DNA of 64,000 nucleotides from NCBI GenBank assembly GCA_014871385.1, contig CM026421.1, positions 15,483,048 to 15,547,047 of the forward strand, written 5' to 3'. Origin of the DNA: Ceratodon purpureus (taxonomy: Eukaryota > Streptophyta > Bryopsida > Pseudoditrichales > Ditrichaceae). A model generated the notes under the pieces. It saw only the letters and a program-made list of their open reading frames with translations. It was not told the DNA's origin and did not search any database. Positions 15,039 to 47,744 of this stretch are shown piece after piece (the first letter of the stretch is position 1; every line of letters starts with the position of its first letter). Made by a program: the position numbers and the translations under genes.

Positions 15039-17093
15039 TCACTTCCGCCGCTTCACCAGTCGGTAATGCAACGCAACGAAGCTCAAAATGCGGTACGCAA
15101 CAGCGAACCCCCCCATGATGGCCACATCCACCCACTTGTTCTCCTGGTCCAGAAACATACTCTCCAACACATTCTCCCCGGTGATGAAACATTTCCCTCC
15201 ATAAACAGGACCGAAGCACCGATCAGCGACATGGGAGTACTCATTGATCAGGAGGGCGTCGAGTGGGTACTTGAACAGAGACAAGTAGTGCATCCACAAC
15301 CACGCCTTCGGCATGTAATCCTTGGCAATGAAATACCCGGAGAATAAGAAGAACGCCCCCATCAGCCCTGTCACCACCGTGTTGCCCATGATGAAGTCCG
15401 ACACCAAGGCACTGCAGAAGCTCACGAACGAATTCGCCGTCACGAGCACCAGCCAGATCACGAGGAGGAAAAACAGAAATGCCTCGAATGGAGGCGCTAG
15501 GCCCACCATGTAGTACACTGGACCTGCGTAGAGAAGCGCCACGAAGAAGAGGAAAGGAAGGAAGACGATGGTTGAGCTGAGCACGTAGCTGGACACGCGG
15601 TACGCGCCGCGAGAAGTCTCCCGGGTTAGGATGTTGCGCTCTTCGAGAAAGATTGGGAGGACTTCGATTGAGGATGTGAGGAGGAAGGTTAAGGTGAAAG
15701 CCAAAAATCCAACTCGTTTCTGCATTCCCGGCGTCCCGTAGCCCATGTGAAGATAGATTGTGCCGAGGCCGGTGCCGCAGATGACGGCTTGGAGCGTCCT
15801 TGCTAGGAGCAGCTGGCGAGTGCGGATGATGTTTTTGATGAAGCGGTGGGAGAGGATGCCGATCTCCTTTGCTCTTGAATTGGCGAATGAGACGACGTCC
15901 GGAGTGTCGTGGTCTGGATCACGGCTAGGTGATGCGTCGGAGCTCGTGGTGTCGTAGTTGAGGGGCGTGGGCGGGGCGCGAGTTGGATCGAGCTCGAAGA
16001 GGGCTTGGAGGGAGAGGACAGGCAGGTCGGTTTTCCCTCGGACTGAGAAAATTGAGCTTCGTTCTGTGGTGTCGAGCGTGTCGATGCTGTCGATGGCGTA
16101 TTCGAGGACATTCACTTGCGCAGGGATCTTATGCCCAGCAGCCGCGAGGCGGGAGGTGAGGAGGTCGAGGGAACCATGGTGGACAACTGCGCCTTGTGCG
16201 AGGATAAGCACCGCGTGGAATTGTTGGAGGATTCGGTAGCCTGGTTGATGGATGGAGAGAATGATCGTCCGGTTGCGGGAGACTGCCATCGATCGCAACA
16301 TCGAGCAGACATGAAGGGCAGCAGCCGAGTCAAGCCCGGAGGTCGGCTCATCAAGGATCAGCACCGCCGGGTCGTGAATCACATCCACACCGATCGAGAC
16401 GCGCCGTCTCTCTCCACCTGACACACCCCGAATGCTCTCGTTCCCGATTCTCGACCCAGCAACATGGGTCAGCCCGAGCTCAGCCATCAGGGCTTCCACT
16501 CGCGCCATCTTCTCTGCCATAGGTACCACACTCGGTAATCGCAACCGTGCAGAGTAGAGCAGCGTCTCCCGCACCGTCAGCATCGGGAAGAGCGCGTCGT
16601 CTTGCATTACGTACCCACTTATCCTTCGAAAATGCTGCCTGTCCATGGGCTGCCCGTTCACTAGAATGCTCGTAGATGGCGAGCTGGGCCTAATCTTGCC
16701 TGCTAGAACCTCCAGCAAGGTGGACTTCCCAGCTCCGCTCGGCCCTGCAACTGCCATGACCTCACCCGGGCGCGCATCGAAGGTGATGTGCTTGAGGATG
16801 TACTGGGAAGGCTTCGCATTGAAGGGCGCGCTGATGGAGTCGGCTTTGTTGGATGTCCCTACTTTCTTCTTGTTAACGATCTTGTACGCGAGGTCGTTGA
16901 GCTCAAGGGTGTAGGTCTTGTTGCGTGAAGGGGAGGGAGAGGGGGATGGAGGGATGGATGCAACTTGGGAGGCTTTGATGTAAGGCTTGTCACCGCATCG
17001 GGAGCTCTTCAAACCGGTGCAAGTGCCGGTGCAGCAGCACACGACATGGTTGCTGCGAGCTCCGCCATCTCTTCGTCTCTCGAAGTCTGCCAT
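15039..17093 (-). CDS. ABCG (WBC) half-size ABC transporter, intronless, 684 aa
   Basis: Membrane transporter of the ABCG half-size class, which dimerises and exports lipids, waxes, hormones or other small molecules. The order is the reverse ABCG order, nucleotide-binding domain first. Walker A GPSGAGKST is at residues 117-125, the Q-loop in GYVMQDDALFP at about 161-171, the signature VSGGERRRVSIG at about 224-235 and Walker B LILDEPTSGLD at about 245-255. The H-loop sits in ILSIHQPG. The C-terminal ~250 residues hold about six hydrophobic spans, with the family-typical GYFI and a Cys-containing last loop (RCFGPVYGGKCF). A short Cys-rich N-terminal stretch (CCCTGTCTG) is unusual. I start at the ATG at 17093; a longer frame upstream lacks an ATG. 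The lack of introns and the GC-rich codon use recall ABCG5/ABCG8/ABCG10-type plant genes. The substrate cannot be told. Confidence 0.93.
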   Translation of the reverse strand: MADFERRRDGGARSNHVVCCCTGTCTGLKSSRCGDKPYIKASQVASIPPSPSPSPSRNKTYTLELNDLAYKIVNKKKVGTSNKADSISAPFNAKPSQYILKHITFDARPGEVMAVAGPSGAGKSTLLEVLAGKIRPSSPSTSILVNGQPMDRQHFRRISGYVMQDDALFPMLTVRETLLYSARLRLPSVVPMAEKMARVEALMAELGLTHVAGSRIGNESIRGVSGGERRRVSIGVDVIHDPAVLILDEPTSGLDSAAALHVCSMLRSMAVSRNRTIILSIHQPGYRILQQFHAVLILAQGAVVHHGSLDLLTSRLAAAGHKIPAQVNVLEYAIDSIDTLDTTERSSIFSVRGKTDLPVLSLQALFELDPTRAPPTPLNYDTTSSDASPSRDPDHDTPDVVSFANSRAKEIGILSHRFIKNIIRTRQLLLARTLQAVICGTGLGTIYLHMGYGTPGMQKRVGFLAFTLTFLLTSSIEVLPIFLEERNILTRETSRGAYRVSSYVLSSTIVFLPFLFFVALLYAGPVYYMVGLAPPFEAFLFFLLVIWLVLVTANSFVSFCSALVSDFIMGNTVVTGLMGAFFLFSGYFIAKDYMPKAWLWMHYLSLFKYPLDALLINEYSHVADRCFGPVYGGKCFITGENVLESMFLDQENKWVDVAIMGGFAVAYRILSFVALHYRLVKRRK

Positions 17094-18319
17094 TGTGGGC
17101 CGGAGTATCACAGCGCTGTTTAAGTTAATCTGTGACTACCTGTTCCTCTATAATCCTACTAATCTCGCAAGCTGCTGATGTGCTTCAATCAAACAATAAT
17201 GTCAAGCTCCGGCCCAATGTTGTTGATAGTACTGTCATTGACATCTGGACATCCGCTGTTTTCGGCAAGACAAGAAAAACCCCAGTGCAATAGCCGAACC
17301 CGATCCCATCGCTTAGCCTGCGGAGGCTACAACATCGGCAATGGAGGGCAGAAGCTATCTGTTGAAGTCACCCTCTTGACCCGCATTCCGTCTTCAGCTC
17401 ATACTCATCTCCTTAGTGTTTGTCCATGCACAATGCAATTGTGGATAGTTCAGCTGCCAAGTCTATCAATGCAACATTTCCCTTCATCCATCGGAGAAGG
17501 TTTCAGCAATGCTGGCTGAGAGGCTAATGCACAGAGCTGCAAACCACAAATGCAAGAGCGCGTAAGTCCATGGCCACGGTTTACATACAGTTCTTAAGAG
17601 AAAGCAAACATCTATCTATTACAGCAAAGTATAATGCAACGAAGCAGAGAATGCTGAGTAGCACGACAGAAGCTCTAAACTTCTCACAGCCTAGCATGGC
17701 TGCCATGGCTAAACATGTGCAGCTCTACAATGCTTGCGTCTACGTGTACCGAACCGCCGGAGTCTACAGAATACCTTGCGGTAGCGCTGCAACACATGAG
17801 TAGAAACTACTACATTGTTAAAATGATCATCCATAAGAAGGGCAATGTAGATCCAAACTCTTCCCAGACATACCAGCTCTACGCAAAAGATCAGCTGCTG
17901 GTCACTCCACGAAAGCGCTGCACGTACATTGCGACAGAAAGCGACACCAATGCGCTATGGCGAGCCATCCCTACAACTCCACACACAGAACCACACTCAT
18001 TTCCACTCCAGCTGCAACATATCCCATCCGCCAAAACCAACTCGACCACCACAACAACCTACACCACCCCCTCGTCGTCACTCAACACACACATCCACGG
18101 CTTCGAGAAGACCCGCCAGCAGCATCAATACATGCAGCCCCAATGCAGGGAGAAAGCGTCACCCCAACAGCTCCACTCCCTCCCCAACGTCCCAGCTACT
18201 GCAATATATGACCGTGACCTGCAACGCTGCACCTTTAGCTAGAACTCACACCGCCATGAGCTGCACCCAATCTAACTACAGTCCGAAGCAATGCACCTTC
18301 CCCACAAGTTGCGAACTAG

Positions 18320-23400: not shown

Positions 23401-25227
23401 ATTTTATTTTATTTAGGTTCCATTCATATACAAACTAATTTAACTGAAGATTCAGATTCAGGCAGGGCAAGGCGATATTTTCTGGTTAGATGTCGGGTGC
23501 AGACTGTGCAGCAAGACAGGCGCAGTGCTCACTGCTCACTCCTCAAGTGCAGCTCTTAAATGACTCTATGACAAGATCTGACACCAGAGCTGTGTTTTTC
23601 CGATCTAAAGCTGGAGAGAGTTCCATCTCCTATGCACCCAAAATCTACAAGTAGTGTACATAACCATTTGCATGTGAGGCTTGTGGTTTCAGTTAATGCT
23701 CACAAACTCGTGAGATGGAGAACAGGAACAAGCCACATCTGCACTCAAATCCCTGTTACATACCCATAGTCAGAATGCCGGAGTTGTCATGATGTTATAC
23801 AATGTTTTTAACATTGTGATACTGGGAGTATCATACTGGAGAGCACTTATTTGGCAGTTACATACAGTTGGCTGTGTGTTGTAGAAACTTCAGCTTGGGT
23901 TGTCATGATCCCTCTCATCAAAAAAAATATCTACGATTTCCTGTCATTGCTCAATACATCATAACGGCACCTCCTCTGCCACCTAGAAATTCAAGCAGAG
24001 CAGAAGTGGGAGACCGCTAGAGAGGTTCGTTTTTAGGTCACCTTGCTAAAAGAAATTGAAGTGTAATAGGACTATTGGCAGAATTGAGTATGAGGACCAT
24101 GGTGATTAATTTATCCTCACGACAACATGATCCACTGAGAAGTACAAAGAGTACTCACGGGTTTTTAAGCACACAATAATCTTCGGCTGTCCTAGGTCAC
24201 ACGCAATGAATGATCTTGAAATCGCTCTGTTAACTTTAAGCCCGTAGCAAAAACGTGATGTCTCCGATGTCAGTGATAATGACTACCAGTCTCATACAAT
24301 GTTTTGACAAGCACGTAGACTTGAAAATTGCCGGGGTCGACAAGAGAACACATGTTATCCACCCTAACAATGCTATTTACAGGGCAGGTCAAGTTTACAT
24401 GGGAAGGAGAAAGTCAGTTGCAAGATAAGGCATAATCATATTGCAACAATATATTGCAAGTCTGCCAATAACAATGCCCTTAGACTGGCTTTGCCCCTGC
24501 TCTAAGGAATGTCAGAGTCTAGTACATTTGAAGAAGATCGTTTCTTCGTAAACCAGCGTGAACCACACACGGCGACAGAAGGTAGTCTGTACATACAATA
24601 CTAAGTCCACAATATTCTCGTCTATCGTTTTTTTTCAGAATATGTTGTTATTGTATCCTGTAATACGACCGGGATCTACCCCTCAATCACAATTTCTGTA
24701 ACATGTAGTGTTCTATGTAGGGAGGCGGATACTAATACGAGACAGCAAGTGGAGTGATCATGTCTTCGCCTGTACTTTCTAGTTCGAGTTTCTCTCTTCC
24801 ATGTGAGTTAATATAGTAAGCTATAAGCTAAGACAGAAGAATGCAGGTTCACTCGAGTCAAATGTTCACGATGAGAAACGGGATCATATTCTACTTTCAT
24901 AAGTAGAACAATTCTTCAAATCAACTGGCTTCAGTAAGAAACGGTACGCTTCAAATAACTGTGAAAATTTGTAAACATGCTTAACAGGGTTTCCAAAAAA
25001 AAAAACCCCCAGAACTTTACTCGATATTCGACAACACTAGCGATTAAAACTCGAAAATCAAAAAGTAAAAAACAAAGAAAGAAAATAGACGAGTATCAAT
25101 CAATACACAATGTAGCTTACTGACAGGGAGGCACACATGAGATAATATATGTTGATGGCAAATAAGACGTTTTACTAGGTAAATCTTATAATTTGGAAAC
25201 AGGGTATATTGACTCAGGCCATGGTAC
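20476..25227. other. Gene-poor intergenic DNA
   Basis: About 4.7 kb without a supported gene. It holds AT-rich sequence, the 30 bp tandem duplication at 22941 and several weak similarities between neighbouring segments (for example around 20971 and 21033). The part just below 25228 is the 3' flank of RPS23. Confidence 0.45.
22941..22999. repeat. 30 bp direct tandem duplication
   Basis: The unit beginning ATAGTTTGGATGGGAAGCCT occurs at 22941 and again at 22971 without a mismatch over about 28 bases, so it looks recent. Confidence 0.9.
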
Positions 25228-26589
<1,362 letters not shown>

Positions 26590-26720
26590 GGTGGCGCGTT
26601 GGGGGTGCGAGAACCCGAAGGGCGATGGCGATGGCGGTGCGCCTGAGCTCCGGCGTCGAAGGCAGACTCGAGCAAAAGACCTCCCTCCTCGCCCTCCGAA
26701 CCCTTTAGGGCTACCCCTCC

Positions 26721-27120
26721 GTTCCTTTTTCTCCCTCTTCGTTACTTTTTGTCTCTCTCTGTTCCTTTTTCTCCCTCTTCGTTCTTTTTTCTCCCTCTTC
26801 GTTCCTTTTTCTCCCTCTCGGTTCCTTTTTGTCCCTCTCCGTTCCTTTTTGTCTCTCTCCGTTCCTTTTTGTCCCTCTCCGTTCCTTTTTGTCTCTCTCC
26901 GTTCCTTTTTGTCCCTCTCCGTTCCTTTTTGTCCCTCTTCGTTACTTTTTGTCTCTCTCTGTTCCTTTTTCTCCCTCTTCGTTCTTTTTTCTCCCTCTTC
27001 GTTCCTTTTTCTCCCTCTCGGTTCCTTTTTGTCCCTCTCCGCTCCTTTTTGTCTCTCTCCGTTCCTTTTTGTCTCTCTCCGTTCCTTTTTGTCCCTCTCT
27101 GTTCCTTTTTGTTCCTTTTC
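26721..27120. repeat. Minisatellite, 20 units of 20 bp, with a 200 bp higher-order period
   Basis: Units follow GTTCCTTTTTSTCYCTCTYC with few changes across 400 bp. The variant order repeats: the rare GTTACTTTTT unit occurs at 26741 and 26941, and the following units match across an exact 200 bp shift. One strand is almost pure pyrimidine. All frames stay open through it, which produces false proteins of Phe/Leu/Ser/Pro or Lys/Arg/Glu repeats. Confidence 0.95.
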
Positions 27121-27611
27121 TCTCCTTTTCGTTATCATTGGTTCCCAGTTCATGGTTATCATCTACTGTAGTACGGATTCATGAATGATTTAAAATTAAG
27201 AAAACTTAAAAAACAATAATTCTAAATATAGACATATGAACTTAAGATGATTTTTTTTAGTGATATGTGACTTTTAGTTATCTGACTTTATTTTTAGCAT
27301 TTTTAAAAATAGTAGAATCAGTGAATTAACTTTTGAGAAATGAACCTTATGTTTTAATTTGAATTTAGATGTTGGTAAAATTGAATTTTTAGTTAGATAT
27401 TTTCCTTATTGAATCTAATAATACGCTTTGAGATGTTTATATTTTATGTTATAAATTTAATAACTTCAGATGATTTAATTTTATCGTTCTATAGAATAAT
27501 TATTATATAAAAGAATTGTGTTAGAGTACTGTATTATATTATTCAATGATTTTATTATTTTCAAAATAAATTGTAATATTTCTAAACAGTAAAATTCGTC
27601 CTTTCATCAAG
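27121..27611. other. AT-rich intergenic upstream of the orphan gene
   Basis: Very AT-rich, no gene. It should contain the promoter of the plus-strand frame at 27612, but TATA-like strings are too common here to choose one. Confidence 0.4.
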
Positions 27612-28406
27612 ATGGCAAGAAATAATGAAACTGTTACTGTAAAACGTCTTGGATTTTTACTGTTTCTTATTTTGATGTGTCTTGATTTAATTGCTATTAT
27701 TTGTACTGTTATAATAGTAATAAGTTTTGACCAACGTGATGAAGGTTTTGCAAAAGGAGGTAAGAGGTTTGTGGAAGGAGTTGGACGTCAAATATATTTG
27801 ATAAATTATTACATTTTAAATTTTATTATTTTGCATGTTGTGCTTCAACTGATTAAAAAATACAAACGGAAAACACATGCAAAAGCTGATGAAGTTGAAA
27901 GTTTTGTCCAAGTTAATGAAAGTTTTGATGAAGGAGATGAAAGTTTGGCCCAAAGCGATGAAGGTTTTGCACAAAGAGATGAGAGTTTTGTCCAAAGCTA
28001 CGAAGGTTTTGCACAAAGAGATGAGAGTTTTGTCCAAAGCTACGAAGGTTTTGCACAAAGAGATGAGAGTTTTCTCCTGGACAAAATTCAGGGTGGAGAT
28101 TATTTTTTGGCTCAATTAGAAGATGTTTCTCATGATAAAAAAATCCTAGATGATGTCATTGAGGTCTTGTTTTTAGGAAATGAAATTACAGCTCCGACAT
28201 GTGAGGAAATGGCTCAATCATTCAACAACAGGGCTCAAACTTCTTATAACATGGCTCAAACATATTTAAATTTGGCTGATACATGTTATCACTTAGATCA
28301 AGTTGAAGAATCATCAAATTTGGTCCAAACATACAATGATTCGGCAAAAAGAAACAAAAGATTATATCAAATATACGATAAATTGGCTCGAAAATATCAT
28401 AACTGA
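27612..28406 (+). CDS. Orphan two-TM protein with two heptad-repeat arrays, 264 aa
   Basis: I do not recognise this protein. A single uninterrupted frame in AT-rich DNA runs from an ATG at 27612. It has two hydrophobic spans (about residues 13-38 and 61-82) separated by a short charged loop, then a basic stretch (KKYKRKTHAK). Residues 94-155 form about nine heptads of the pattern [D/Y]E[G/S]F[A/V]Q[R/S]. After an acidic linker, residues 199-262 form a second array of units like MAQTYLN and RAQTSYN. The expected topology is a membrane hairpin with a cytosolic helical or coiled-coil tail. Codon use is AT-rich like the surroundings, and the array expanded at DNA level. Lack of introns and location beside repeats suggest a young or lineage-specific gene. 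A spurious long frame is possible but unlikely given its ordered layout. Confidence 0.65.
   Translation: MARNNETVTVKRLGFLLFLILMCLDLIAIICTVIIVISFDQRDEGFAKGGKRFVEGVGRQIYLINYYILNFIILHVVLQLIKKYKRKTHAKADEVESFVQVNESFDEGDESLAQSDEGFAQRDESFVQSYEGFAQRDESFVQSYEGFAQRDESFLLDKIQGGDYFLAQLEDVSHDKKILDDVIEVLFLGNEITAPTCEEMAQSFNNRAQTSYNMAQTYLNLADTCYHLDQVEESSNLVQTYNDSAKRNKRLYQIYDKLARKYHN
27957..28073 (+). repeat. 42 bp coding repeat in the orphan gene
   Basis: A 42 bp unit starting TACGAAGGTTTTGCACAAAG is present in two almost identical consecutive copies with a diverged copy before them. Each unit encodes 14 residues, that is two heptads (YEGFAQR and DESFVQS), so copy changes keep both frame and helical register. 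Confidence 0.9.
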
Positions 28407-28782
28407 ATAACCCTCATGAGAACTTAGTTTTAAAACATGTGGGGAGCCTTATAGTATAAACAACCTTCTTTGTAAAATCAAAAGATGCAATGATCATACT
28501 ATTGCATCCATATTGAAATTTTGAAATAAAGTAAGTGTTTTTGATAAAAAGATCATAATATTTGGATTGTTGTTTTGTCAAGCACCTCAAAGTCCACATG
28601 ACACTTATGTAGACATTAGTATAAACTAAAAAATTGATGTGAAATGTACATATTAATTACATATGTTTAGGACTTCTGTCTCCAAGCTATGAGCTGAGAT
28701 ATGTTAGTTAGAACAAGTCTGTCATAAAAAATTCTCAATTGCTAAAACATTCAGAGACTTATTTGACCAACTGTTTGTATAA

Positions 28783-29049
28783 TACCGTAGCCTACTAGCA
28801 GCTTCGTCATGCACCGTCGTATATTTAATTATTTTGAAAAAATGATGTTCAACACCTCCAAAATGAATTTTTCAATTTTCGTTTTTTAGCGAAAAATCAG
28901 TAAAAATGACCTGAAATGGCTTAGAACCAACAAAATATTGCAAAAACTAATTTATTCTTATTTCGATTTTATGACTTCATAATTTTCTAAATTTTTTGTT
29001 TTCTATTTTTAGAATTATTTTTGAACGAAGCTGCTAGTAAGCTACACTA
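28783..29049. mobile_element. MITE family A, copy 2 (267 bp)
   Basis: The best preserved termini of the family: left GTAGCCTACTAGCAGCTTCG from 28788, right end reverse complement GTAGCTTACTAGCAGCTTCG, one mismatch in 20. The interior is shared with copies 1 and 3. It has no coding capacity. Confidence 0.82.
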
Positions 29050-29211
29050 ACGAGTTGCTTGGCACTACTGGGTAGAAGGCTGGAAAAGTATGAGTTCTGT
29101 TGTACATCATTGAATATAGATGAATAGAGAAGGATACCATACTGTACACATGGCACTAAGAGTCTAAGACCAACCGCTCTTGACAAATAAAAATAAAAAT
29201 AAATAAAAATA

Positions 29212-29391
29212 AATCCCTCCAAGTGGTATAATTCCTAACTGGTTGTGATGTTTTCTCTTTTACATGGTTCAGAATTCAGAAGTCTGCCATCGCCCTAGAC
29301 TTTTGTCCGATGAGGGTTGTACTTTAAATTCTTTGCTATGAAATTCGTTCATTTGCTCCAAAAAAAAAATTAAAAAAAATTAAAAATAAAA
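29212..29391 (+). mobile_element. Short non-LTR retroposon, copy with poly(A) tail
   Basis: About 148 bp from AATCCCTCC to TTTGCTCC, followed by an A-rich tail to about 29391. The body is about 85 percent identical by eye to the reverse complement of 54844-54984, including TGATGAGGGTTGTACTTTAA and TTCGTTCATTTGCTCC at the 3' end. It is a SINE or a 5'-truncated LINE tail. Confidence 0.75.
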
Positions 29392-29453
29392 ACATGAAAA
29401 AATTCAAAACGTGAATATGTAAATCATGGAGTCTCTATTGTAAAGCACTAATT

Positions 29454-29802
29454 TAAGGTAGAGATGGGTATTCTTGTCAGGGTTCTGAATCCGTGCCCTA
29501 TCATACCACCAATATTCCTAACAGCACCTAACTACTACACTAAGTAGATTTCATAACAACTTATCATGTTCTCGATGCAAGAATCTTTGTATTACATGTG
29601 TCTACTCACGGAAATAGTGGTCTACGCTGTTGCACTTCAAATATTCATGAAAATTTGATAAATTTCGGAAAAAATAAATTCAAAAAATCATATCTGTGAT
29701 TTACAACCTAACATCTATTTGTATAAAGTTTATCCCGATAATTTTCTCAATCCCATATATGCTGAATGGCTTATACTGACGGAAATACCCATCTCTACCT
29801 TA
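29454..29802. mobile_element. MITE-like element, 349 bp
   Basis: The left end TAAGGTAGAGATGGGTATT continues to CTTGTCAG; the reverse complement of the right end is TAAGGTAGAGATGGGTATT continuing to TCCGTCAG. That is a terminal inverted repeat of 27 bp with three mismatches. The interior is AT-rich and non-coding. The first bases TAAGGTAGA are shared with the element at 13543. Confidence 0.85.
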
Positions 29803-32800
29803 CCTTGTAGCGCAGCATCTGGGGATGGCATTGCCATGTGATGATGAATCTCTGGACCCTGGCAATGCCCAGTGAATATGGACAATGCCATACCCATGAT
29901 ACAGGCACTAGTTTCTCAATAAGTATTAAGTTGGTTGTGGCAGTCTCAACAAATTCATTAAGATTTAGTATTACTTTACTACTGACCCGGGGTAGACAGG
30001 TCCTCAGAAAGTCATAATTGTACTGTATTTTATTTCCAAGTAAGGCCATAGTACTGGTAAGCATTAATCAAACCATGAGTTTGTCATGATATTTTGAAGT
30101 GCCTCGGAACAGCTAAAGCCCACTGTAAGGTTGAGTTGATAGTACAGGTTGGGTTCATACTAAAGGCAGGTTTACATGTGTGATCGAAGTCAAGTTGAAG
30201 CCAAGAAGGGGTTGAATTATCTTGACTCTTTGGTAGAGAGGTTAAAATTGGTTTTTGCCTATGTAAATGTAATTAAGGGTCTTGATATAATGTGGGTTTA
30301 TTGTTTATCAAATTAGTTTGTTTCATTTCAAGGATTGTGTGTGTAAGATGGTTCCATGAAGTAAAAAGTGAATGTATTATTTTAAAAAATTGTTTAGATG
30401 ATGTTGGAGGCTATGATGCATACCATATTAAGGTTGGTACAAGATATTGATAGTAGATGAAAGAAAAAGAAAACAAGAGAAGGGATGTGTTGACCATGAT
30501 CCCATGTGGAAAATAGCCTCAAGTTGTCCCAGAAGGAATGAAGGAAGAAAATAGACAAGAAAACCTTATGTTTCTAGAGAAGGCTTGTTAATGAAATTTA
30601 ATCACTTCTGCACATTCCTTTGAAAATAGCAATTAGGATATTGTATAATTTTTTGGATTTGTTTTTTTGCTGAATTTGTTCCATAAGAATACAACAAAAT
30701 CTTCTACATGACTGTGAGTCCAGTTCACATGAAAATGAATTTGAAATTCTGTAATTTCTCTGTCCAGTACAATGGATTACCAGATCATATTAATCTTCTT
30801 GAACTTGTTCAATTTTCCCCTGAACAAAGAACTCGTCCAATCATCCAACCCAAGCAGGGTAGTCAAGTTAACCCTCACACACTCTAGCAAAAATTGCAGC
30901 GCTGATGATGGCCACTTGTACATAAAGTTAAGAAAAGTACCAAAATCAAAGCTGTCAAGGTCAAGTACATTTTATGTCCATAGCCTCACACATACATGTT
31001 TAACCCTTCTGTGCATCAACATAAATTCCGCCACGTTCAGATCCTGAAGTGGCAAACCAGGAATATATTTTCCACCCCTCCAAATTCACCAACTCAACAC
31101 AACTTACATCTAACACAGAATAACAATGAATTCTCATGGAATTTCACATCCAATATTTTAAAAATATGCATGCTCAGTGAGACTAACTTTGTGGCATTGT
31201 CCCACATGATGCAGAATGCCATGACATAATTTCTCTTCCACTATTATAGAACAAGACATTGAAGACACTCTGACACTCTCATCAAATCTCTTGCACACCT
31301 CTTTACTCCCCTCATTTGCTTGGCAATGGCCATGCTCCTCCACCTCCAAGGCTCTATTTTCTCCCAGAGAAAGAGCAACAGAAACAAGTGCCTCATGCTC
31401 ACAGACAAGCCTCTCTCTTATAATCTGCCGGTTGTGCTCCCTGTCATCTGCTGCTGCCACTGAATAATTTTGTCATGCACGTTGAAACCATTTCTCCAGG
31501 TTGAGGACAAAGCATATATGTTATGTATGCATCCTCCACCAGATTCTACCGAGTCAGTTTGTTGAGCTAGAGCTCAGGCAGGTGCAGGTGAGCATTGAAA
31601 GCTTGCTTCGGTTCATGGTTGTGAGTGTGGTTGCTTAGGTCTTTCACTTGAGTCAGTTTTGAGGATATAGCTGCAGGAAAGGAACTTGGTTTTGGAGGTG
31701 TATCTGTGATGTGTTTTTTTAAAAATATTTTAAAAAATAAGGTGGAAGTTGTGGAGGTTGCTGGTTACGATGAGGACTTGGAGAGGGAAAAACCGACTAG
31801 TTTCTGTTTGGAGTGATTGTTACGAGGGATTCCGATGTTGGTTTTTGCATTGTGAAGAGAAGTGAGGTGGTTGAGAGAGTATAGTTTTCATGGTGGCCAT
31901 GCCCACTTGTGAACTGATTCTAGAGTGGTGTTGAACGGGTGGTGTCTTCGTACTGTGTCTGAACTTGAAGAGGCTTGGTTTTATAGTCCAGCAAAACTGA
32001 CTTAAAACATGTCAACAATGGAGGTGTGAGAGGGAGTTTTTGAGTTGGGGCGAGGTTTGTCGCTCACACTTTCAGCTGCGCCAAGCTCCGCATCAAACTC
32101 ATTTCTGTTCATCAAAACTATAACTTGTATTATCGAGGTGGTAACTGCTTTTCTAGAGAATTTTCTGGACAAAATGTCCTCGCATAGCCAATGCAGAGTT
32201 GAGGGTTTAAGAGCACTTTGTGAAGTTCTTACTTGGAAACAGAAAACTTAAAGATTTGTGCAGTTCCTTCTGCTTCGGAGATAGTTCTGGGATGACTAAC
32301 TCATATAGAAATGATGTGGCGAGCTGTTAAATAGAAGAACACTAGTGGGGTGCTCATTTTCTGATGATTTTGAAGTCGTAGTTATTCCAGCTGGTTTTAC
32401 AATTTTTAAAGTGACGTATTTCAAAATCCACTCCTGTTCCCTTCTGAAAAGATACATGATCAATTTCTGGAGAAGAAACCTAACCATCTTTTCGAAGGAT
32501 GTTAATGAATTACGCTTGATGAGCTTCTGTAATGTGGCAGATGAGAAGATGTGGATATTACAGTGGACATTGTGGAATTGATTAAAAGCAATAGTCATCA
32601 GACACACATTCTTGGTGAAGTTTCGGTCAGAAAACATGGGGGTAAGTGGCAAACATGATCAATGGTCTTACCAAAATTAATCTTGTACATGTAGTACTCT
32701 CAGAGCAAGTGAGACCATATTTCAAAGCAAAAATTGTTGTCGTATATTTATCCACTGATTGTCCTCTTGAAAAATGGAACGGAATCAGGTTGACATATGA

Positions 32801-32925
32801 AGAATTACATCAATAATTCCTCCATTTTCATACTCATTGTAGATTTAAAGCTTTTCGAATCGTTAGAACTGACACTGTGCGTCTTGTAATTTACGTTGGG
32901 GCAGCTCGGTGATGCATATCGGCGA
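29803..32925. other. Intergenic upstream of the Patched-like gene
   Basis: No complete gene. One coding-like minus-strand segment lies at 31188-31459. The final part, up to 32925, should hold the promoter and 5' UTR of the Patched-like gene. Confidence 0.4.
31188..31459 (-). other. Coding-like segment, possible exon
   Basis: On the minus strand an acceptor (AATTATTCAG) precedes 31459 and a donor (AAA then GTTAGT) follows 31188. The enclosed ~90 codons read AAADDREHNRQIIRERLVCE and onward, with charged helix-like composition, two conserved-looking Cys/His pairs and no stop. A short segment reading DLNVAEFMLMHRR after another acceptor further down could be the next exon. No start or family was found. 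Confidence 0.3.
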
Positions 32926-35900
32926 ATGCTGTACAGATACCATTTGGTTATGAATGAAATTTTCTCAGGCTATGGATCATTTGTTGCCCGAAAACCATGG
33001 ATTCCCTTCACGTAAGGCTTCCAACAATACCAGACTGTTATTAAAAATGTCGCTTGAATGTGCATATTTTTAATTGATCCTATCTTGAGAAATAGTCAGA
33101 GTCACACCAAATACTCCTCTGTTATACTGTGATCTTGATAGCCATACCTGTGTTCAACAACCATGTCATCAAAGCTGCTGAAAACTAACTAACGCGCATC
33201 TCTGTGATCCTAACGGCTGTTTCTTAATTTCACTGGCGCTGTAGAGTTGGGATTCTGCTTTTAGGAGGCATGACAGTGGGTTTGGTCAAGCGAACAACGG
33301 AGACAGACTTGGAAAAGCTGTGGGTAGAGCACAACTCGCGTGTTGTAGAAGAACGATTGTATTTCAACGAAAGGTTTATGATCATCTTCCTACACTCTGA
33401 ATTCTAAAAATGAAGAAGAGAAACATCATCAATAACTCTAGTACAATTCTACGCTGTATCATCTTGAATCAGTTCAGGCTGCGGTTCTAGATGTCATGTC
33501 AAGTATCTAGAAAAGAAAAATCATGTCACAATGATCTTAATAAGGTTAGCATTTTGTGGTTGGCCATCATGTAATGCGGCCATCGAATGCTGAATATTTT
33601 TGGTGACAATCTTGGCACAACAGATTTGGAGGCATTCCACGGAAGCAGTCGGTCACCATAACATCTCGAGCTTCGCCGGATGCTCAAATCGATCTGAAGC
33701 GATCAATGGATGCCCTGTCTCTAGCTGTGGCACCTCTTTATGACTCGCTGACTATGAAGAAGGTTGTAGGCGGTGCAAAGCAAGAGCTGGGAGAAGTAAG
33801 AACGCTGAAGTTTACTCTTCCTCTTGCATGAATGTTGACTGATCAAGGAACATGCAACTTTCTTCTATTTGAATTGAGTGAGGGTGATGCTTCGAGAATG
33901 CAGTAGAGCAGCATCTCCTCGATAGAATTGATACATATTTTTCTTTTCTAGGAATTTTATCTGGTTTTTGGGATGTCAGGTTGATTTCTGTGAGAGACCG
34001 ATTGTGCCCACCTCGTTGAAGCCCGGGAAGAATCCAATTAAGGATAACAACTGGGGAGCATGGGGACTACAATTTCTGTCCACTTGTTCTGTGTTTTGGG
34101 CATACACAGGAGTAGTGCCGTCGTCAGCCGCACTTCCTGAAGGATGGGGTATTACAAGGTTTCCATGCACCAAGCTCACACCAATGGACTGTTTCAAAGA
34201 AGGTGGTGACTTCGATTACCCCGAAGAGATGAAGCTTCTGGAAAGGCCTCTACCTGACCTTGGCCAGCTGAAGAATCTCACCCTTATTGATGTTATACTT
34301 GGTTTGTTCCAAATGACAACGGCGCCTGTTAAATGCGTGAATCTTTTGAAAACAAATATCACTGCTCAGTTTAAAGAAAGTGGCAGGCCCGTTGCTGAAG
34401 TTAATTCGGTACGAATTTCTAGACTACACTTTGGTCTCATTTTGTGATGCTGATGACATTGTGATTTTTTTGGTTAACAGGCACCATCTACTGTCATTTT
34501 CAGTATAGTACTTCTTGTGCTTAACGAGCAATGTATTGAAATGAAAAAACTTGTTCATAAACCGTATGAAAGCCTTCGATGGAAAAAAAGAATACCACTT
34601 TTCAACTATGTCTTGTGTATCTGGACAGATTTTACTCGAGGTTGTGTCGACGATGGAATTAGCCTTCACTTGGGGTTATCGGTGGCGCAAACCTTACTCT
34701 GGGATGAAAAATAACGAAGAGGTAAGAACACCAATGGGGCAAATAGATGCATCTAGTATGATTTTGTTACTCAAGGAATGCGAATCCATTGCTATAACGG
34801 ATCGACCTTTCTTTGACTCAATCAATTCTTGGGCGGTAAATATCACAGTGCTAGAACGAAGCCAACTTTCCTTGACTCTATTCAATTCTGTTTTAAGAAT
34901 CTACTCATCCAGCAGCTTAATAGGGTAGAACACAACTTGGTTACAGACAATGGCTGATATTTCTTTCATTCTGATGCAGATAATAGACCATATCAACGCT
35001 GCTGTTGAAAATGGTCGGCACAGAAGTCCTGATCCTGGCAAACCTCAGGTTAGTCAATCGGTACCGACCCGATGAATCAAGACAATGTCGCACATTCTCG
35101 TCGCGGTGAATTGAAATTTTCGTTTAATGTGGATAGAAGCTATTAGAGCCTATAACAGACAGAGTGCACTTCTTTGGTAAAATCTGCGTTCACTAGATGA
35201 TAAGCAAGCCTAGAGTTACACTCTAATGCTTAATGATCAATTCGATCATGGTCGGGTTGCAGATCTTGGACTGCATCCTTCAGAAGATGCCTTGCTGCAT
35301 GACATGGTTTGGGGGACACATTCCGATTTACACAGCCCTTGGGAGCGTGGAGTATGATCCGTCGGGAAGAAATATTACTAAGGTTTTCTCCTGCTACTTT
35401 TCTGTCGAATAATTTCATATTCCGTGTAGTGAACATCAATTATGTGCACTTCCATCGCATCGCAGTTAGTGCACAAGAAAAACCTGGATTGCATGCAGAA
35501 AAATGATAATAATTCACAGAGACTAACAAGGGCCATTTCCACTTCATTGGTTCTTGCAATAACTTTATTCTTATACAGCTTGGAGGCGTGCGCTGGGGTT
35601 CGAACAACTATCACCATGACCACCCTCTATTTGCAGAATACATCAACAGTAGATTGGGAGCCACAACAGACTCAAATGAAAGGGATCACTTAGTGAAAGA
35701 ATGGGAAAATGTCATGATTCACGATTTAGATCCCTTAAGACGGCACGCTAAGAATACTTCATTCGGAGATGGGGAAGTATATGGAGACCTACAGCTCGAA
35801 TTCAACATGTGGGTATGTTATTTTCCCTGGACAATGATGTTCCTATTTAATGCCTGGTTCTCTGTGACCAAATTAAATACTGTGCATGCTTCAAGAGATT

Positions 35901-38900
35901 CACGCATTACAGCTTGTTCAGTCTGTGTTAAACCTATCTGTGAATGAAAGATTTGGAAGCAAATATGATGTTCTAATGCTTGATGATCAAATACAATTAC
36001 TCATGATCATCTAATGCTTGTTGCAGAAATCTACTGAGGACATTATTGCTGATGCAAGCAAATCTCCTCTATGGCAAATCATCCTCGGCGTAGTGCTCGT
36101 CTCCATATATGCTTTCATAGCATTCCTCAACTTCCGAGATCCAGTGCATTCACACACCGGTTTAGCGGCTGTGGTAAGAGTTAGTACTTAGGCGCTTGCT
36201 TGACAATGCTTCATAATGCTGAATTGCAGCTGTTCTGAAGAAGGAATGATGCCTGTGACTCCGCTTTCTTCACTTCTCTGTGTAGAATATCTGTTGCTCA
36301 TACTTTGCTTATTTTGATTATTTTGGTCAGAGTACTATATAGCTTTTATGAAACTGAATGCATTAAAATCATATTTGCATTGACCATGATTATGTGTGTG
36401 CATCGATGCAGGGAATGGCGGTGGTAGGATTTGCTGTTATAGCTGGATTTGGTCTTACTGCACTTTGTGGCATTTCCTTCTCTCCGTTAGCAGGCTCGGT
36501 TGTGCCCTTCCTTGCGCTTGGTTTAGGTAAGAATTTCTCACTCAAAAATTAGCTCATAGAAGTTTGCTAGAACTTTAGGATTGTACTATCACAAATTTTA
36601 CAGTGATAGAATGTGGAAGGATTGCAAGAAAGAGTGATGATGGTATTGATCATGTAATGTTATATGTGCAGGTATCGATGACGTTTTTGTTCTAGTGAGC
36701 ATCTTGCGGAATTTCTTGGAAGATCCAAAACTGCAAGCACTCAGCAGGCCAGGAGACTTGGTTCCAGAACGTGAAATGAGACTAACATTAGCTCTTGCTG
36801 GCCCCTCCGTTGTCCTCACAACATTTTCTGTTCTAGCAGCCTTCTTCATTTCTTCTTTGGTAATGAGCCTTTCCTAATTCAATCATGATTTGATTTAAAC
36901 TCAAAATCAGGGCAATTGTGGAGTATAATTCGCCATTTGAATTCCTTTCAATTTCAATCACCTTGTTCCTGCTTGATCTAATTATGCACGTGAAGTTTCT
37001 TATCAAATTCTCATTTTAATGAACAGAATCCCATGCCAGTGGCACAATGGTTTTGTTGGCAAATGGGCTTGACTGCCACTGTACACACACTTGGCATGAT
37101 TCTCATCTTCATGCCCATTATGGCTCTTGACGCCCGTCGCGTTAAGGTATTGTTCTGGTTAACCTCTCTTCACAAATATTCATCTATCTCGATTCTACCT
37201 ATTCCTTGCCTGTAGCTCAAATTAAAGAAAGTCAGTGCAAAATTCAGCTTAAAATTATGTTGTAGATCTTAGTACATAATTTGGAAGTTAGCCTTAGGGT
37301 TGAGCTAAGACCGGGACTGGCCCTGTTCAGGCTCGTTACAATGATCCCAATCTATGGCTCTTCTGCGGCATCCGCAATAAGAGCAGCAAGGCACCTGAAG
37401 GTGAGATATCCGAGCACTTCTTCAATTTGATGCCCTTTGAATTATCCTTCGTAGGCAGGACAAGAACAAAGGTTGATCTTGTAATGTGTTGAGCTATGTG
37501 TGTAACAGCCCCGTACAAGGAGCCAGCTTTCAATGGAGATAGCTTCGATGTTTCGGATCCTTCATTCCAAGAGAGCTCAGGCAGCTCCGTAATATCTCGT
37601 TGGGTGGCGAAATATTACGCACCTCTATTTGAAAGCAATATTTTCAAAATATCTGTGGTAAGATAAAAGCTACAATTTACTAAAAACTTCTCAGAGATTG
37701 ACAAGTTTGTTCACTCGCTTGTCACAACCTCTAGCTGCTTGAGTGCTTTTGAAACCTCAACTCCTCTCAACTTATGTATGTGAACTGCCTACTTAGTTTT
37801 CATGGAAAGTAAGAATAAATTCCTTACAAGGTATGTCTAACTCTTTTGAGTCTTTTCAACAATTGGGCAGGTTATTGTGTTTGCGGGGTTGCTTGTATCC
37901 ATGACCTACTTGGGTTTTGAGAAAGTGGAGCATGGACTAAGGCTATCAGACATCACATTAACTGGTGACCTTTCTTCATAGCCGCGATGTTTCAGTCCTT
38001 ATCATTTTTGTGAAAAATCGATGAATCTGTTTCATTCACTTCTGCTCCTATGCAGGGTGAGCTGATTAAAATGCAAGCAGATAATGAAAATCGACGAATA
38101 GCTGATGAGAAGCGAGTGTTGATATTGCAGGTTCATATCAAAATACATTTGCCATTACTACGGAGGACAGATTCACAAGTTACGATGTTGTAAGTATCTT
38201 CTAAACTGGATCTGATAAGGACTATAGTGGTCTAGTATATCACCATGAAGAATGCGACTAATGTTTCGCCACCTTGTTCCTTAAATCAACCTGGATTGAG
38301 ATATGTATCCTTCGTTGCTAATTTCTTGTGTACAAAAGTTGCTGCAAGTCTAGCTCTGGTTTGCTGTGTACGTCGCTCAATAATCATGCACATTCAAGAA
38401 GAAAGCATAGACTTGATAAGTTCTTTGGGTTGGTTGCAGTGGATTGTTACAAGAGACATCGATTATGCGAAAAACCAGAAAAATTTGATTGAGATATATG
38501 GCGCTCTTGAAAACACAAGCTGGAATCCACCACAACCAGGGGTAATTGAGTAGCCCATGTACTTTCAGAACGAAATACTTTCAGGGTGATGTTTCCCATG
38601 CGTAGCAAAGAACATTCATTTGCTCTCATCTTCTACTTGAAATTAATCTGCATGGGATTGCTTGTGCTGTTTTTTTCTACTTAGAAGCCTTTGTTCTCAT
38701 ACATGATGCTGGGGCAGATATTGGAAGGATCAGCACTTGGAACCCTCTACCTGTGGAACAAGATTGTGTTTAACGCCAGCTGGCCTCTTCCTCCAAACAA
38801 TGAAACATTGTTCTACGACTATACCAAGATCTGGTCAGCAGGACCATTGGGTACGTCCACTGATTCATTTAATGTTTCCAGGAAAGATATGTCAATTGTG

Positions 38901-41037
38901 TCGCACCTGCACACAGTTATATGTTGAAATGGTTACTCACCTCGTTGTTCTGATGTACTCTGCTTTCCTCTTGCTTTGAGAGGTTAACTGGGCAACTTCT
39001 AATGATTTCTGCCAATTCACACATTGCACGGTAATCTTATAAAATGTTTCTTTTGAACAGGAATTGTTTCCCTGCAAGATCTTTACTGTGACGATGGTGT
39101 AACAAAACAGCCACTCAGCTGTCTCCAAGACTCACATGCTCCAGGATACAAATCCAACCCGAATTTCCGCATTGCTGCTAGCAAAGCTGGGGTATGGCAC
39201 TGTCAAAGATGTGTGACTCATCTCTAAATTTTCTCATTTTCATCTGTAATGGAAGTCAAATTCATTTACATAACTTCCATAATCAAAGTGCTTCTTAATA
39301 TCACTCTTATGCCAATTGAATGGGCTACCGGGGTTTTATTCTTCCTGATCAGAATCATTTTCTTTACTGCAGATGTTTGCACTACACTTGGGTTCTAAGA
39401 CATCATCCAACCTTGCAATGATAAAAGAAACAAGAAAGATCGTTGACGACATGAACACAAAATTTGGTGAAGATGTTGCATTTATGTACGGGTTTCCGTT
39501 CCTCTTTTATGAGCAATATCTTCACAGCTACCGCGATCTTTACCTTGTTGTGGGCTTGGCCTTAGGTACGAACTTTCACCCAACCATCTCCTTTCTAAAA
39601 ATGTTTGGGAGGCTTGGGAGTTTTGTCAATGCCGCTAATTTATATCTTTACCAGGTTTTTCCTCTGAATTTGAATCTATGCTTTGCTTGTGACCGTGCCA
39701 CTTCCTGATGTGTTTTCAGCTGACGTTGTTGTGATGGTTGGCTGAATCAGTTGGTGTGTTTATTGCCGTTCTCATCTTCCAGTTTAGCATAACCATGTCG
39801 TTGATCATCGTCGGTGTATTGCTTATGGTTGATCTCGAAGTCTATGGGTTCATATATGTAATCGGAGCTAAATTGAATTGTAAGTTCACCTTTCCATTTT
39901 GAAAATCATTGTAACTACAAACAATCTCCGTTTACCAAGAGAGTAAAATTAACGAGGAAAATAAATAATGAATTTTTAATTTATGCAAATTCAATTTGAA
40001 ATAACGATTCTTCTGAAATGCTGAACAATTTAGAAGTATATTATCAATGTGATGGACTGTTCATGAGGGACTCTGTCAGCCTTTTCACCTGATAACAAAA
40101 TTTTACATCAGAGTTTTTTTGTGGCAAAATTTCTGACATGATTCGTTGGGATGCAACCTCTGATGCAACCTGGCAGCATTATCGCTTGTCAACCTTGGCA
40201 TTGTTGTAAGTTATCTCTCATTCCACTTGGTCATACCTTGAGCGAAGTGTTCAATGTAGAACTTGTATATCTTTGGACATCATTATGTGCAGGCTGTTCT
40301 AGAAAATGCAATTACAGACTTTCTACTACTTATTCAGATTGGGTCTCAATAATAATTCTGAAAGCATTAATTTTCCATGGTTTCAGGTTGGAATGTCGTC
40401 TGAATTTACCTACTTGGCAAGATCATTCCTGGTGGTTGATGGCACTCGCAACTACAGAGTCAGGAAAGCATTGGAGTGGACATTTGAACCACTTCTACAT
40501 GGCTTTGGCACTCAAATCGCTGCCACCATTCCCCTTATTTTCGTCAAGTAAGGCCCAACACAACCGTCATCTAAGCCCTTTCCATTCCATATTCTGCATT
40601 CAGGTTAATTCAATTTAGCCATTTAAAATTTAACAGATGTAACTAGCTTTTTCGTTATCTGCATGTGCAAAGTCGCTAAAAAACTTAACCCAGACTTGGT
40701 GTGTCAATATATTGTATTGATGAATTGTGTTACCTAACATAAAGTTTTGATCATTTTCATTTTCGGTTTTGAATTTATAACCTTCCTCTCTTTAACTTGT
40801 AGATATCATGCATTCCGGCTGTACTACTTCGCCATGTTCACCATTATGGGCGTGCTGGGATTCTTAAATGGCTTTGTGCTGCTTCCGGTAATTCTTTCTT
40901 GGATTGGCCCTCCCACTCTCCCCCATATCAAGAAGCTGAGTCAAAAGGGAGTTGCCCAAGATTCAGGCTTCAGAGCAAGTCCTTACCATGGTGGTGACAC
41001 GCCCATGATGACCCACAATGGTATCACTGTTCCTTAG
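32926..41037 (+). CDS. Patched/NPC1-like RND permease, 24 exons, 1139 aa
   Basis: Multi-pass membrane protein of the Patched/NPC1 branch of RND permeases, which move sterols or other lipids. Exons: 32926-33011, 33245-33373, 33624-33795, 33980-34408, 34629-34721, 34980-35048, 35263-35382, 35579-35812, 36027-36173, 36412-36526, 36672-36859, 37027-37146, 37331-37400, 37509-37657, 37871-37964, 38131-38189, 38440-38541, 38685-38850, 39061-39191, 39373-39565, 39751-39879, 40177-40205, 40387-40547 and 40803-41037. All phases close (3420 bp). TM1 follows residue 28. A first lumenal domain reaches about 455. The sterol-sensing-type five-helix bundle spans about 458-640 and has the RND proton-relay motif GLGIDDVFVL near 530-539. 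TM7 is at about 708-724, then a second lumenal domain, then a final bundle with NSLSLVNLGIVVGMSSEF around 999-1014, like the NPC1 SLVNLVM...GISVEF block. The N-terminal cysteine-rich sterol-binding domain of NPC1 is absent. The ATG at 32926 is the first in its exon; an upstream coding exon cannot be excluded. Ligand unknown. Confidence 0.9.
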
Positions 41038-43786: not shown

Positions 43787-45234
43787 ATGGCTGTTCGAGG
43801 TCGGGGAGCTGGAGTTCGCCAACTGCTGTTACTGATGGTGAGCTTGATGAGCATTGTGCATGGCTCAGCGGCATTGAAGGTGGGATTCTACAACACCATC
43901 TGCCCCAAAGCTGAGGCCACTGTCAAGGCAGTGATTCAGGGGAGATTCAATTCGGACAAGACCATCACCCCTGCTCTGCTGCGCCTTTTCTTCCACGACT
44001 GCTTTGTCAGGGTAAGCTCTAGTTAATTTTACACCAAAATCTGGACGCCAGGAGATGCTTTTAGCAGCTAGACTTTCAACATAACTGAGATTTCAAGCTC
44101 AGTCACTAGAGTGCCTTGACGTTATTGAATTGATATTCTAGATGGGACATATGTAAGACTCTCTGGTTGTATGTTAACATTCAGCGCTAATCGATAAATC
44201 TCTCTGTTCAGGGATGCGATGCGTCATTGTTGATAGCATCTACACGCACAAACTCGGCAGAGAAGGACGCTGGAGCGAATTTGACAGTCCGGGGATTTGA
44301 TATTATTGACGCTGCCAAGGCTGCTGTTGATAAGTTGCCTGGTTGCAAAGGCAAGGTGTCTTGCGCAGACATCATCGCACTGGCCACCAGAGACTCAGTT
44401 GCTCTGGTACACATACTGATCTATTCACCAATTCTAGTGCAACCAAATCTTTCCCTTCTGAAACACTTTCTGTATTCCAGTCTAGGCAGTCCTAAATCAT
44501 CTGAAACATGCAAGTGGTTGAACTAATTGCAGGCTGGAGGCCCAGCTTTCGCAATGCCGACTGGTCGTCGAGATGGGCGGGTGTCCAAAGCGTCGGAGGT
44601 GAACTTGCCAGGCCCCACTTTGAGCGTTGCTGATGCAACCAGGGCATTCACTGCCAAGGGCATGTCCCAAGCCGACATGGTCACCCTTCTAGGTACTCCC
44701 TGAAATGAAATTCAACTTCTATGAATTCTCAATTTACATCTAGTATTGAGAATGAAGGTTAATATTTGATGCTAATTGCCTGATCACTAACATGATGACC
44801 TCTTTCATTTTTTATTTTTTGCAGGAGCTCACACTGTGGGCATCACCCACTGCAGCTTCTTCGACGACCGACTGTGGAACTTCAAGGGAACCGGCAGAGC
44901 TGACCCATCCATGGACGTTAACCTTGTGAACCAGCTGAAGAAACTGTGCCCTAAACAAGGAGTTGGGCTCGGAAAGGCGGTGAACTTGGACCAAGGCACT
45001 CCTGCCCAAGTTGACAAGAGCTTCTTCAACCAAATTCTTGCCAAGAAGGGAATCCTGCTGCTTGATCAATCTCTGGCCACCGACAGGGCCACGTCTGGCC
45101 GAGCCAATTTATTGGCTGGACCCAGGTCTCCGTTTACTGCTGATTTCATGGCTGCTCTTGTCAGGCTGGGTAATGTGGGCGTCCTGGAAGGCACCAAAGG
45201 AGAGATCCGAAATATTTGCAGCAGAATCAACTGA
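43787..45234 (+). CDS. Class III secretory peroxidase A, 4 exons, 329 aa
   Basis: Secreted haem peroxidase that oxidises phenolics with hydrogen peroxide in the cell wall. Exons: 43787-44011, 44212-44406, 44533-44692 and 44825-45234, with phases 0, 0 and 1, the standard intron positions of plant peroxidases. A signal peptide covers about residues 1-29 (hydrophobic [16 protein letters not shown]). The distal haem motif [17 protein letters not shown] contains catalytic R66 and H70. The [14 protein letters not shown] block lies in exon 2, and the proximal haem ligand is H196 in [10 protein letters not shown]. The eight structural Cys appear to be present (C39, C72, C77 and others). The protein ends RNICSRIN, without a vacuolar extension. 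It faces peroxidase B tail to tail. Confidence 0.96.
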
Positions 45235-45754
45235 ATTCAAGGAATCCAGAACATTAGATTGGCAGGATGATGGATTCGGATGATGGTTTCGGACGGAATA
45301 ACTTTCCTTAAAACACATGTTTGTGATGGAGTTGGCTGTGAATTTGAGATAATTTGGTACCCTGGAAAGCTTGATAACAAAACTCAGTTTTAGAGTGAAG
45401 ATGACTAATCAAATTGGGATTTAATAAGCATGATTAGATCATACAATGTTGTTGAGACCTGCATACTAGTTGCACTCTGGACTCCTTTTGTTTTCTGAAT
45501 AATAAATTGCTATTTCAAATCAACTTCTCTTCCTTTCAAAGTGCTTCAAAATGCATGCTCTACAAGCAGTTGAATCCACATTCATGGCCGGTCAATGTGC
45601 CGGGCCCTCTCGCATGTTCTATTTCTTGCAATTGTAATTCTGAATGTGGTGATCTCTTATCCTTTCAAAAAGAACACACATAAACCCCGTCATTATGCCA
45701 GACAGTGGCGCCTCAGAACTTCAAGGCATTGTAGGATTTTGGTGGTAAATCAAG
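45235..45754. other. Short convergent intergenic region between the peroxidases
   Basis: About 520 bp between two stop codons. It should contain both 3' UTRs and polyadenylation regions; AATAAA-like strings are present (for example AATAATAAATTG near 45500). No gene seen. Confidence 0.5.
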
Positions 45755-47617
<1,863 letters not shown>

Positions 47618-47744
47618 TGCTTCACTATGCAGCTGAGATGATGCTATGATACCCCGAGAGAGATGAAGTGGAAGGTATTAAATGCATACCTGGCTTTAGC
47701 TTTCTAGGCTGAAACCAGTGTGGTGCTGGGTCAGAAAGCTCAAG

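Follow-up and report, generated by a model that had tools for sequence, protein, structure and literature searches.

Does a moss encode a permease of the Patched type, or is the gene that suggests it a plant NPC1 gene without its N-terminal domain? Patched is known chiefly from animals, as the Hedgehog receptor. The question is raised by PTC1, a gene of the moss Ceratodon purpureus that lies in the window, namely the whole stretch of 64,000 nucleotides analysed here (contig CM026421.1 of GenBank assembly GCA_014871385.1; C1:15483048-15547047 of a 362.5-Mb genome in 151 contigs). The original prediction regarded this gene as a Patched-like RND permease. PTC1 is separate from plant NPC1, and it is quite likely an RND permease built like Patched, from an old lineage apart from plant NPC1 that would lie on the Patched side and would move sterols or lipids at the expense of a cation gradient.

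When the three frames were read and the exons were joined, the 24-exon coding sequence proposed earlier was reproduced (32926-41037 on the + strand; 1139 aa; stop codon TAG at 41035-41037), with GT-AG at all 23 introns and no in-frame stop codon. A protein search of the genome with PTC1 returned 48 matching stretches, which consisted of PTC1 itself, a locus on contig C4, and three fragments of one exon. The C4 locus (C4:17952166-17960282, minus strand) encodes a paralogue of 1144 aa, with 24 exons by spliced alignment plus a small first exon, and is 83.0% identical to PTC1 over 1138 aligned codons. Intron position and phase were common to the two genes in 24 of 24 cases; the model of the paralogue was built by alignment to the PTC1 protein, which favours such agreement, but the splice sites are nonetheless present in the DNA.

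Between the two copies, synonymous divergence (dS) was 1.00 and nonsynonymous divergence (dN) was 0.099, giving a dN/dS of 0.098 (0.079-0.122 in 200 bootstrap resamples). This ratio indicates that both copies are maintained under purifying selection, and together with the second copy and its identical intron positions it excludes a chance origin of the PTC1 frame. The dN/dS values of the individual regions were 0.011 for transmembrane segments (TM) 8-12, 0.066 for the sterol-sensing domain (SSD), 0.098 for TM7 with the second extracellular domain (ECD2), 0.136 for the first (ECD1), 0.209 for the N-terminus with TM1, and 0.265 for the C-terminus. Constraint is strongest in TM8-12 and in the SSD, which is consistent with a role in transport; ECD1 and ECD2 are more variable, yet their dN/dS is still about 0.10-0.14.

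The start of PTC1 was examined by comparison of the two copies. The AYRR codons and the splice acceptor just upstream of the ATG at 32926 are conserved, and a DNA block at 32604-32646 matches the paralogue (E=3e-4) and ends in both copies with ATGGGG followed by the donor gtaag, whereas upstream of the ATG at 32636 the two copies differ by indels that alter the frame, which resembles a 5' untranslated region. Because the paralogue keeps the acceptor, the AYRR codons, and the tiny upstream exon, translation likely starts at 32636. The resulting 25-exon model (32636-41037, + strand; 1148 aa) has GT-AG at all 24 introns, an open frame, and nine additional N-terminal residues, MGLGDAYRR. The earlier statement that the protein starts directly before TM1 therefore needs amendment: no N-terminal domain was found upstream, but the ATG at 32926 is probably internal and a small exon adds nine residues. 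As a separate observation, a 534-bp piece at 38884-39417, which comprises exon 19 of the 24-exon model with the introns on either side and the beginning of exon 20, is found again, 85-89% identical, at three further sites, located on C8, C6, and C1. These three copies are about 90-98% alike to each other over long stretches, which marks the piece as part of a gene that travels within a repeated element.

The RND architecture claimed for PTC1 was confirmed. Both transmembrane bundles match PTCH1 (93.6 and 92.3 bits), and the SSD matches PF12349 (82.7 bits) and PF02460 (62.9 bits). The GIDD motif in TM4 and GMSSEF in TM10 align with GVDD and GIGVEF of PTCH1 and are kept in the paralogue; the Asp-Asp pair of TM4 and the Glu of TM10 are putative ion-relay acids. 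The count of 12 transmembrane segments comes from the alignment with PTCH1; the number is not fixed by a crude hydropathy scan, whose 15 windows include merged ones and two that lie within ECD1.

PTC1 scored higher with Patched than with NPC1 in each comparison. Against PDB chains, the scores were 198.6 bits with PTCH1, 138.2 with NPC1, 126.1 with NPC1L1, 69.2 with NCR1, and 55.9 with the Niemann-Pick type C1-related protein 8v0g of Toxoplasma. The same genome holds two NPC1 genes, NPC1-A and NPC1-B, and the 884-aa core of NPC1-A gave 644.4 bits with NPC1 and 227.8 bits with PTCH1. With the NCBIfam models, TIGR00918 (Patched) and TIGR00917 (NPC1) gave 266.9 versus 201.7 bits for PTC1 and 260.0 versus 203.4 bits for the paralogue, whereas the NPC1-A core reached 1097.8 bits with TIGR00917 and thus exceeded its curated cut-off (1016.5 bits; that of TIGR00918 is 1120.4 bits).

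The extracellular domains were compared by local alignment, with p values from 300 shuffles and a Gumbel fit. ECD2 of PTC1 aligned with that of PTCH1 end to end and scored 80 (p 2e-6), against 52 for human NPC1 (1.2e-3) and 47 for NPC1-A (7e-3). For ECD1 the scores were 61 with PTCH1 (p 6.6e-4), 49 with human NPC1 (6.6e-3), and 47 with NPC1-A (8e-3), and after removal of the first 40 residues they were 60 with PTCH1 and 49 with human NPC1. On these scores, the ECD1 signal is modest.

PTC1 resembles PTCH1 (TIGR00918; PDB 7v6z and 9ms8) in an RND core with an SSD and no NPC1 N-terminal domain, in GxDD of TM4 and Glu of TM10, in a colinear ECD2, in the motif PCxxxTPxDCFxEG of ECD1, and in FLF(W/Y)EQY before TM8; it differs in its overall identity of 29% (two-sequence alignment with the 947-aa joined PTCH1), its longer ECD1, and a score far below the curated cut-off. 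With NPC1 (TIGR00917; human NPC1, yeast NCR1, and NPC1-A and NPC1-B) it shares the RND core and the SSD, whereas NPC1 has an N-terminal domain and an extra TM, extracellular domains and introns unlike those of PTC1, and GVDN (NPC1-A) or GVNN (NPC1-B) in place of GIDD. Dispatched (DISP1, PDB 6xe6) shares the RND core and GxDD but is about 20% identical to PTC1 in the core columns compared, and no Dispatched chain was present among the 32 PDB sequences that matched PTC1 at E up to 1. Apart from these comparisons, GVNN in TM4 of NPC1-B (C9:4.752-4.772 Mb), where NPC1-A has GVDN, is a possible change of the ion site.

Next, the N-terminal domain typical of NPC1 was sought. Family-profile search of the PTC1 protein found no NPC1_N match. 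A PF16414 scan of the genome gave seven stretches, none near the window; five of the seven exceeded the cut-off, each of them at one or the other NPC1 locus, and of the two below it one lay at the NPC1 locus on C9 and one on C6. When both NPC1 N-terminal domains were used as tblastn queries, nothing better than E 1.6 was obtained in the window, while each of these queries did recover the NPC1 loci, including that of the other copy. A hidden Markov model search for this domain on both strands of 24001-33100, which had no separate positive control, gave nothing better than E 2.9. In the 5.7 kb upstream of the paralogue, DNA matches to the upstream region of PTC1 beyond the two conserved blocks were found only at E 0.046 or worse. 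The genome profile scans treat each exon on its own, so that a split gene can escape them, and an empty result counts for little: the two places returned by the PF02460 scan were NPC1 loci, and neither PTC1 nor its paralogue was recovered. Nevertheless, the absence of the domain asserted in the original prediction was borne out by the protein profiles, the genome scan, and tblastn alike, and inspection of the genomic sequence for an upstream exon revealed only the tiny exon bearing the ATG and no NPC1_N exon.

Phylogenetic analysis grouped PTC1 with PTCH1 in tree 1 (seven sequences, 428 columns; support 87.8/84), in tree 2 (NCR1 and the TM1 block added, 485 columns; 93.5/94), and in tree 3 (paralogue added, nine sequences; 93.5/93). 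A position inside canonical plant NPC1 was rejected by the approximately unbiased (AU) test in tree 3 (p=0.00026 under LG+F+G4 and 0.00077 under LG+C20+F+G4), in tree 1 (p=0.0003), and in tree 2 (p=6e-6 and 3e-4). In the 24-exon model, a single intron of 23 coincides exactly with one of NPC1-A, and none coincides with NPC1-B. NPC1-A (26 introns) and NPC1-B (23 introns) have 21 in common, although their splice sites were first assigned by a simple script according to the similarity between the two genes and later adjusted manually, a procedure that promotes such agreement. The intron positions agree with an origin of PTC1 separate from NPC1.

Within the Patched/NPC1 split, a placement of PTC1 on the Patched side is most likely, as suggested by these alignments, family models, and trees, but several results weigh against it. 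Both PTC1 and the paralogue miss the curated cut-offs of TIGR00918 and TIGR00917, and NPC1-A scores as high with the Patched model (267.2 bits) as PTC1 does, so that only the difference between the Patched and NPC1 scores points to Patched. ECD1 is about 100 aa longer than PTCH1 ECD1 as cut for comparison. The trees hold at most nine sequences, with PTCH1 as the sole animal Patched and DISP1 as a long, partly missing branch. The AU test kept a position as sister to all NPC1 throughout (p=0.183 in tree 1, 0.063/0.112 in tree 2, and 0.066/0.123 in tree 3), and a basal position was borderline (0.033, 0.079/0.051, and 0.039/0.066, respectively). PTC1 could accordingly have branched off early from the line leading to NPC1, as sister to all of its members, with an N-terminal domain that was never present or was lost and a Patched likeness retained as an ancestral character. 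This explanation, which the AU range of 0.063-0.183 and the equal Patched-model scores favour, is unlikely in our judgement, considering that Patched is preferred to NPC1 by the ECD1 motif, by ECD2, by GIDD, and by the two profile scores and that the tree of the largest set supports the Patched grouping at 93.5/93. Since PTC1 remains below the curated Patched cut-off, it is termed Patched-like and not a certified Patched. The Patched-type assignment of the original prediction is hence favoured by sequence, family model, extracellular domains, and tree, and qualified by the missed cut-off and the retained sister position; its direction was probably right, PTC1 being a divergent Patched-like lineage.

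The remaining explanations fare worse. That PTC1 is a duplicate of plant NPC1 which lost its N-terminal domain would suit the shared superfamily and the presence of NPC1 twice in the genome, but it is extremely improbable: the AU test rejects it in all three trees (p from 6e-6 to 0.00077), one exact intron is in common with NPC1-A and none with NPC1-B, and the TIGR00917 score of 201.7 bits compares with 1097.8 for NPC1-A. A truncated plant NPC1 was therefore rejected on the AU tests and intron positions. It is also very improbable that the N-terminal domain sits in an upstream exon missed by the model. One small exon was indeed found upstream of a start placed too far downstream, and exon-by-exon scans can miss split genes; however, the upstream exon has its ATG six bases before the donor, no NPC1_N match lies near the window, the tblastn queries that find the NPC1 loci reach E 1.6 at best there, and the 5.7 kb upstream of the paralogue shows nothing further than the weak matches described above. 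The missed exon was rejected on the ATG and on the empty PF16414 and tblastn results near the window. Finally, an animal or fungal gene present by contamination or recent transfer, an idea prompted by the fact that Patched is known mainly from animals, is hardly credible in a 29-Mb contig with apparently plant-type peroxidase and ABC transporter genes nearby, for a gene with 24 introns and a second copy on another contig at a dS of about 1.0. It was rejected on neighbours, introns, and second copy; an ancient transfer is conceivable. Pattern scans of viral contigs gave 4 and 62 matches and those of bacterial and archaeal contigs gave 49, and none was a relative by tblastn. The case for a Patched-like lineage is strengthened by the second copy, purifying selection, and the Hedgehog-type genes described below, and is limited by a sparse tree and by comparison within this single plant genome.

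Functionally, PTC1 would most likely be a cation-driven sterol or lipid permease. A cation gradient acting through Asp543, Asp544, and Glu1023 would drive the protein, and a sterol or other lipid would be moved between the membrane and the extracellular domains, as proposed for Patched, by an architecture of SSD and two ECDs without the sterol-binding N-terminal domain and first TM of NPC1. In the accessible part of PMC2698682, Patched-family proteins are assigned an ancient RND origin over their entire length and may still act as proton antiporters, with sterol-like molecules as possible substrates.

Among the literature matches listed, no description of a bryophyte Patched-like protein was found; as evidence of absence this is weak. 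In an oomycete, an NPC1-like protein with an SSD is more abundant on flagella, but it is no match to PTC1 because it has the NPC1 N-terminal domain, according to the available text of PMC12223298. Two Arabidopsis NPC1-like proteins are candidate sterol sensors in the portion available of PMC6447690, where Patched and Hedgehog are named only in comparison or references. The available sections of PMC8172173 mention NPC proteins for anemone symbiosis and mammals, and in those of PMC4143559 the word "patched" denotes mended gene models.

The original prediction also stated that plants have no Hedgehog pathway, and this needs a qualifier. A genome scan with PF01079 (Hint) gave six stretches, of which three were over the cut-off, at three loci named HogA, HogB, and HogC (95.8, 99.6, and 90.0 bits with approximate models; cut-off 29.7). 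In all three, CFPG with the start Cys opens the Hint part, TPLH or TALH (TxxH) is present, and an N-terminal hydrophobic stretch resembles a signal peptide by eye, and the proteins are apparently secreted. The Hint part of HogA matches Protein hedgehog 6tyy (32.2 bits), SHH (7e2i; 31.4 bits), and 1at0 (28.0 bits). Alignment with 6tyy revealed that Asp46 and Cys143 of the Hedgehog Hint domain are not kept: the place of Asp46 is taken by His in 3/3 (HogA aligned directly, HogB and HogC via HogA), as it is in the printed letters of 6tyy, and the place of Cys143 by Ala or Ser in 3/3. HogB differs from HogA and HogC in its N-terminal part, which is Cys-rich and gave weak STIG1-like and CPL1-like matches that did not reach the cut-off. 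A SUFU scan of the genome, subject to the same limit for split genes, found no match, and no Hedgehog N-domain is known from plants. Hog domains of Physcomitrella and Selaginella were reported in 2008; as far as the text at hand of PMC2362128 goes, these are of the Hedgehog Hint type, the Physcomitrella protein carries a signal peptide, as HogA-C appear to do, and Patched is named for animals only. Such Hog proteins would be possible partners, not relatives, of PTC1.

The excerpted text of PMC8529194 links Asp46 and Cys143 to sterol transfer and folding and states that D46H in the fly Hint domain allows a wider array of sterol substrates. A D46H construct is mentioned in the available part of PMC9599816, hedgehog appears only in the reference list in that of PMC7299128, and stigmasterol is given as the major Physcomitrella sterol in that of PMC6447690. 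It is conceivable, though quite unlikely, that mosses have retained a relative of the animal module with two parts, in which self-cutting secreted Hog proteins are paired with Patched-like permeases. The Hog products may then be capped with a plant sterol, as the His at position 46 matching fly D46H would suggest, and the permeases could act on this sterol-linked product or on the same sterol, by receiving, extracting, or clearing it, possibly on flagellated sperm. If so, the pairing of a sterol-linked ligand with Patched would be older than animals.

Table 1. Coordinates of the PTC1 features (window positions) and of the Hedgehog-type Hint loci (genome positions)
Feature	Position	Strand	Basis
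PTC1, Patched-like RND gene, 25 predicted coding exons, 1148 aa	32636..41037	+	GT-AG introns, open frame, paralogue on C4 built alike
Exon 1, proposed coding part (ATG GGG, donor gtaagt)	32636..32641	+	Block conserved in the paralogue, including the donor
Exon 2, holding ATG 32926; encodes the start of TM1 and, ahead of it, the AYRR helix	32905..33011	+	Conserved from the acceptor on, 80% DNA identity, E=9e-30
Exons of remaining TM1 and ECD1	33245..35812	+	Local alignment with PTCH1 ECD1
ECD1 motif FPCTKLTPMDCFKEG, resembling PTCH1 YPCLIITPLDCFWEG; paralogue, FPCTKLTPLDCFKEG	34160..34204	+	Alignments
Sterol-sensing domain, TM2-TM6	36027..37146	+	PF12349, PF02460
Ile-Asp-Asp of GIDD (Asp543 and Asp544 in the 1148-aa protein), TM4, putative ion-relay acids	36674..36682	+	Aligned with PTCH1 GVDD
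TM7, ECD2, start of TM8	37509..39565	+	ECD2 alignment with PTCH1
End of ECD2, TM8-TM12 bundle, C-terminus	39373..41037	+	92.3 bits to PTCH1, residues 895-1098 of the 1139-aa model
Glu1023 in TM10 (GMSSEF), third putative ion-relay acid	40402..40404	+	Aligned with PTCH1 GIGVEF
Three loci of HogA, HogB, and HogC	C9:15.304 Mb, C12:13.350 Mb, C7:0.400 Mb		PF01079

Elsewhere in the window, peroxidase (PF00141) frames were located at 44191-45234 (+) and 45755-47677 (-), and the stretch 44191-47677 probably holds two class III peroxidase genes. A 698-aa open frame at 15039-17135 (-), in which an ABC domain (PF00005) is followed by an ABC-2 membrane domain (PF01061), probably encodes an ABCG half transporter, and a frame at 865-1482 (-) with a weak Myb-like DNA-binding domain under the Pfam cut-off is possibly a GARP-type factor. 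The low-complexity stretch at about 26580-27190, with long overlapping frames on both strands and RDKKERR-like repeats, is probably no gene but a tandem repeat. Neither Rfam at the gathering threshold nor a tRNA scan gave any match in the 64-kb window.

In summary, a maintained and duplicated Patched-like gene beside Hint genes in a moss would place the split between Patched and NPC1 before animals, and perhaps also a link between Hog proteins and Patched. A moss would offer a genetically tractable system outside the animals in which to ask what Patched moves without a Hedgehog ligand, and the Hog genes in the same genome would make a plant relative of the animal Hedgehog module testable.

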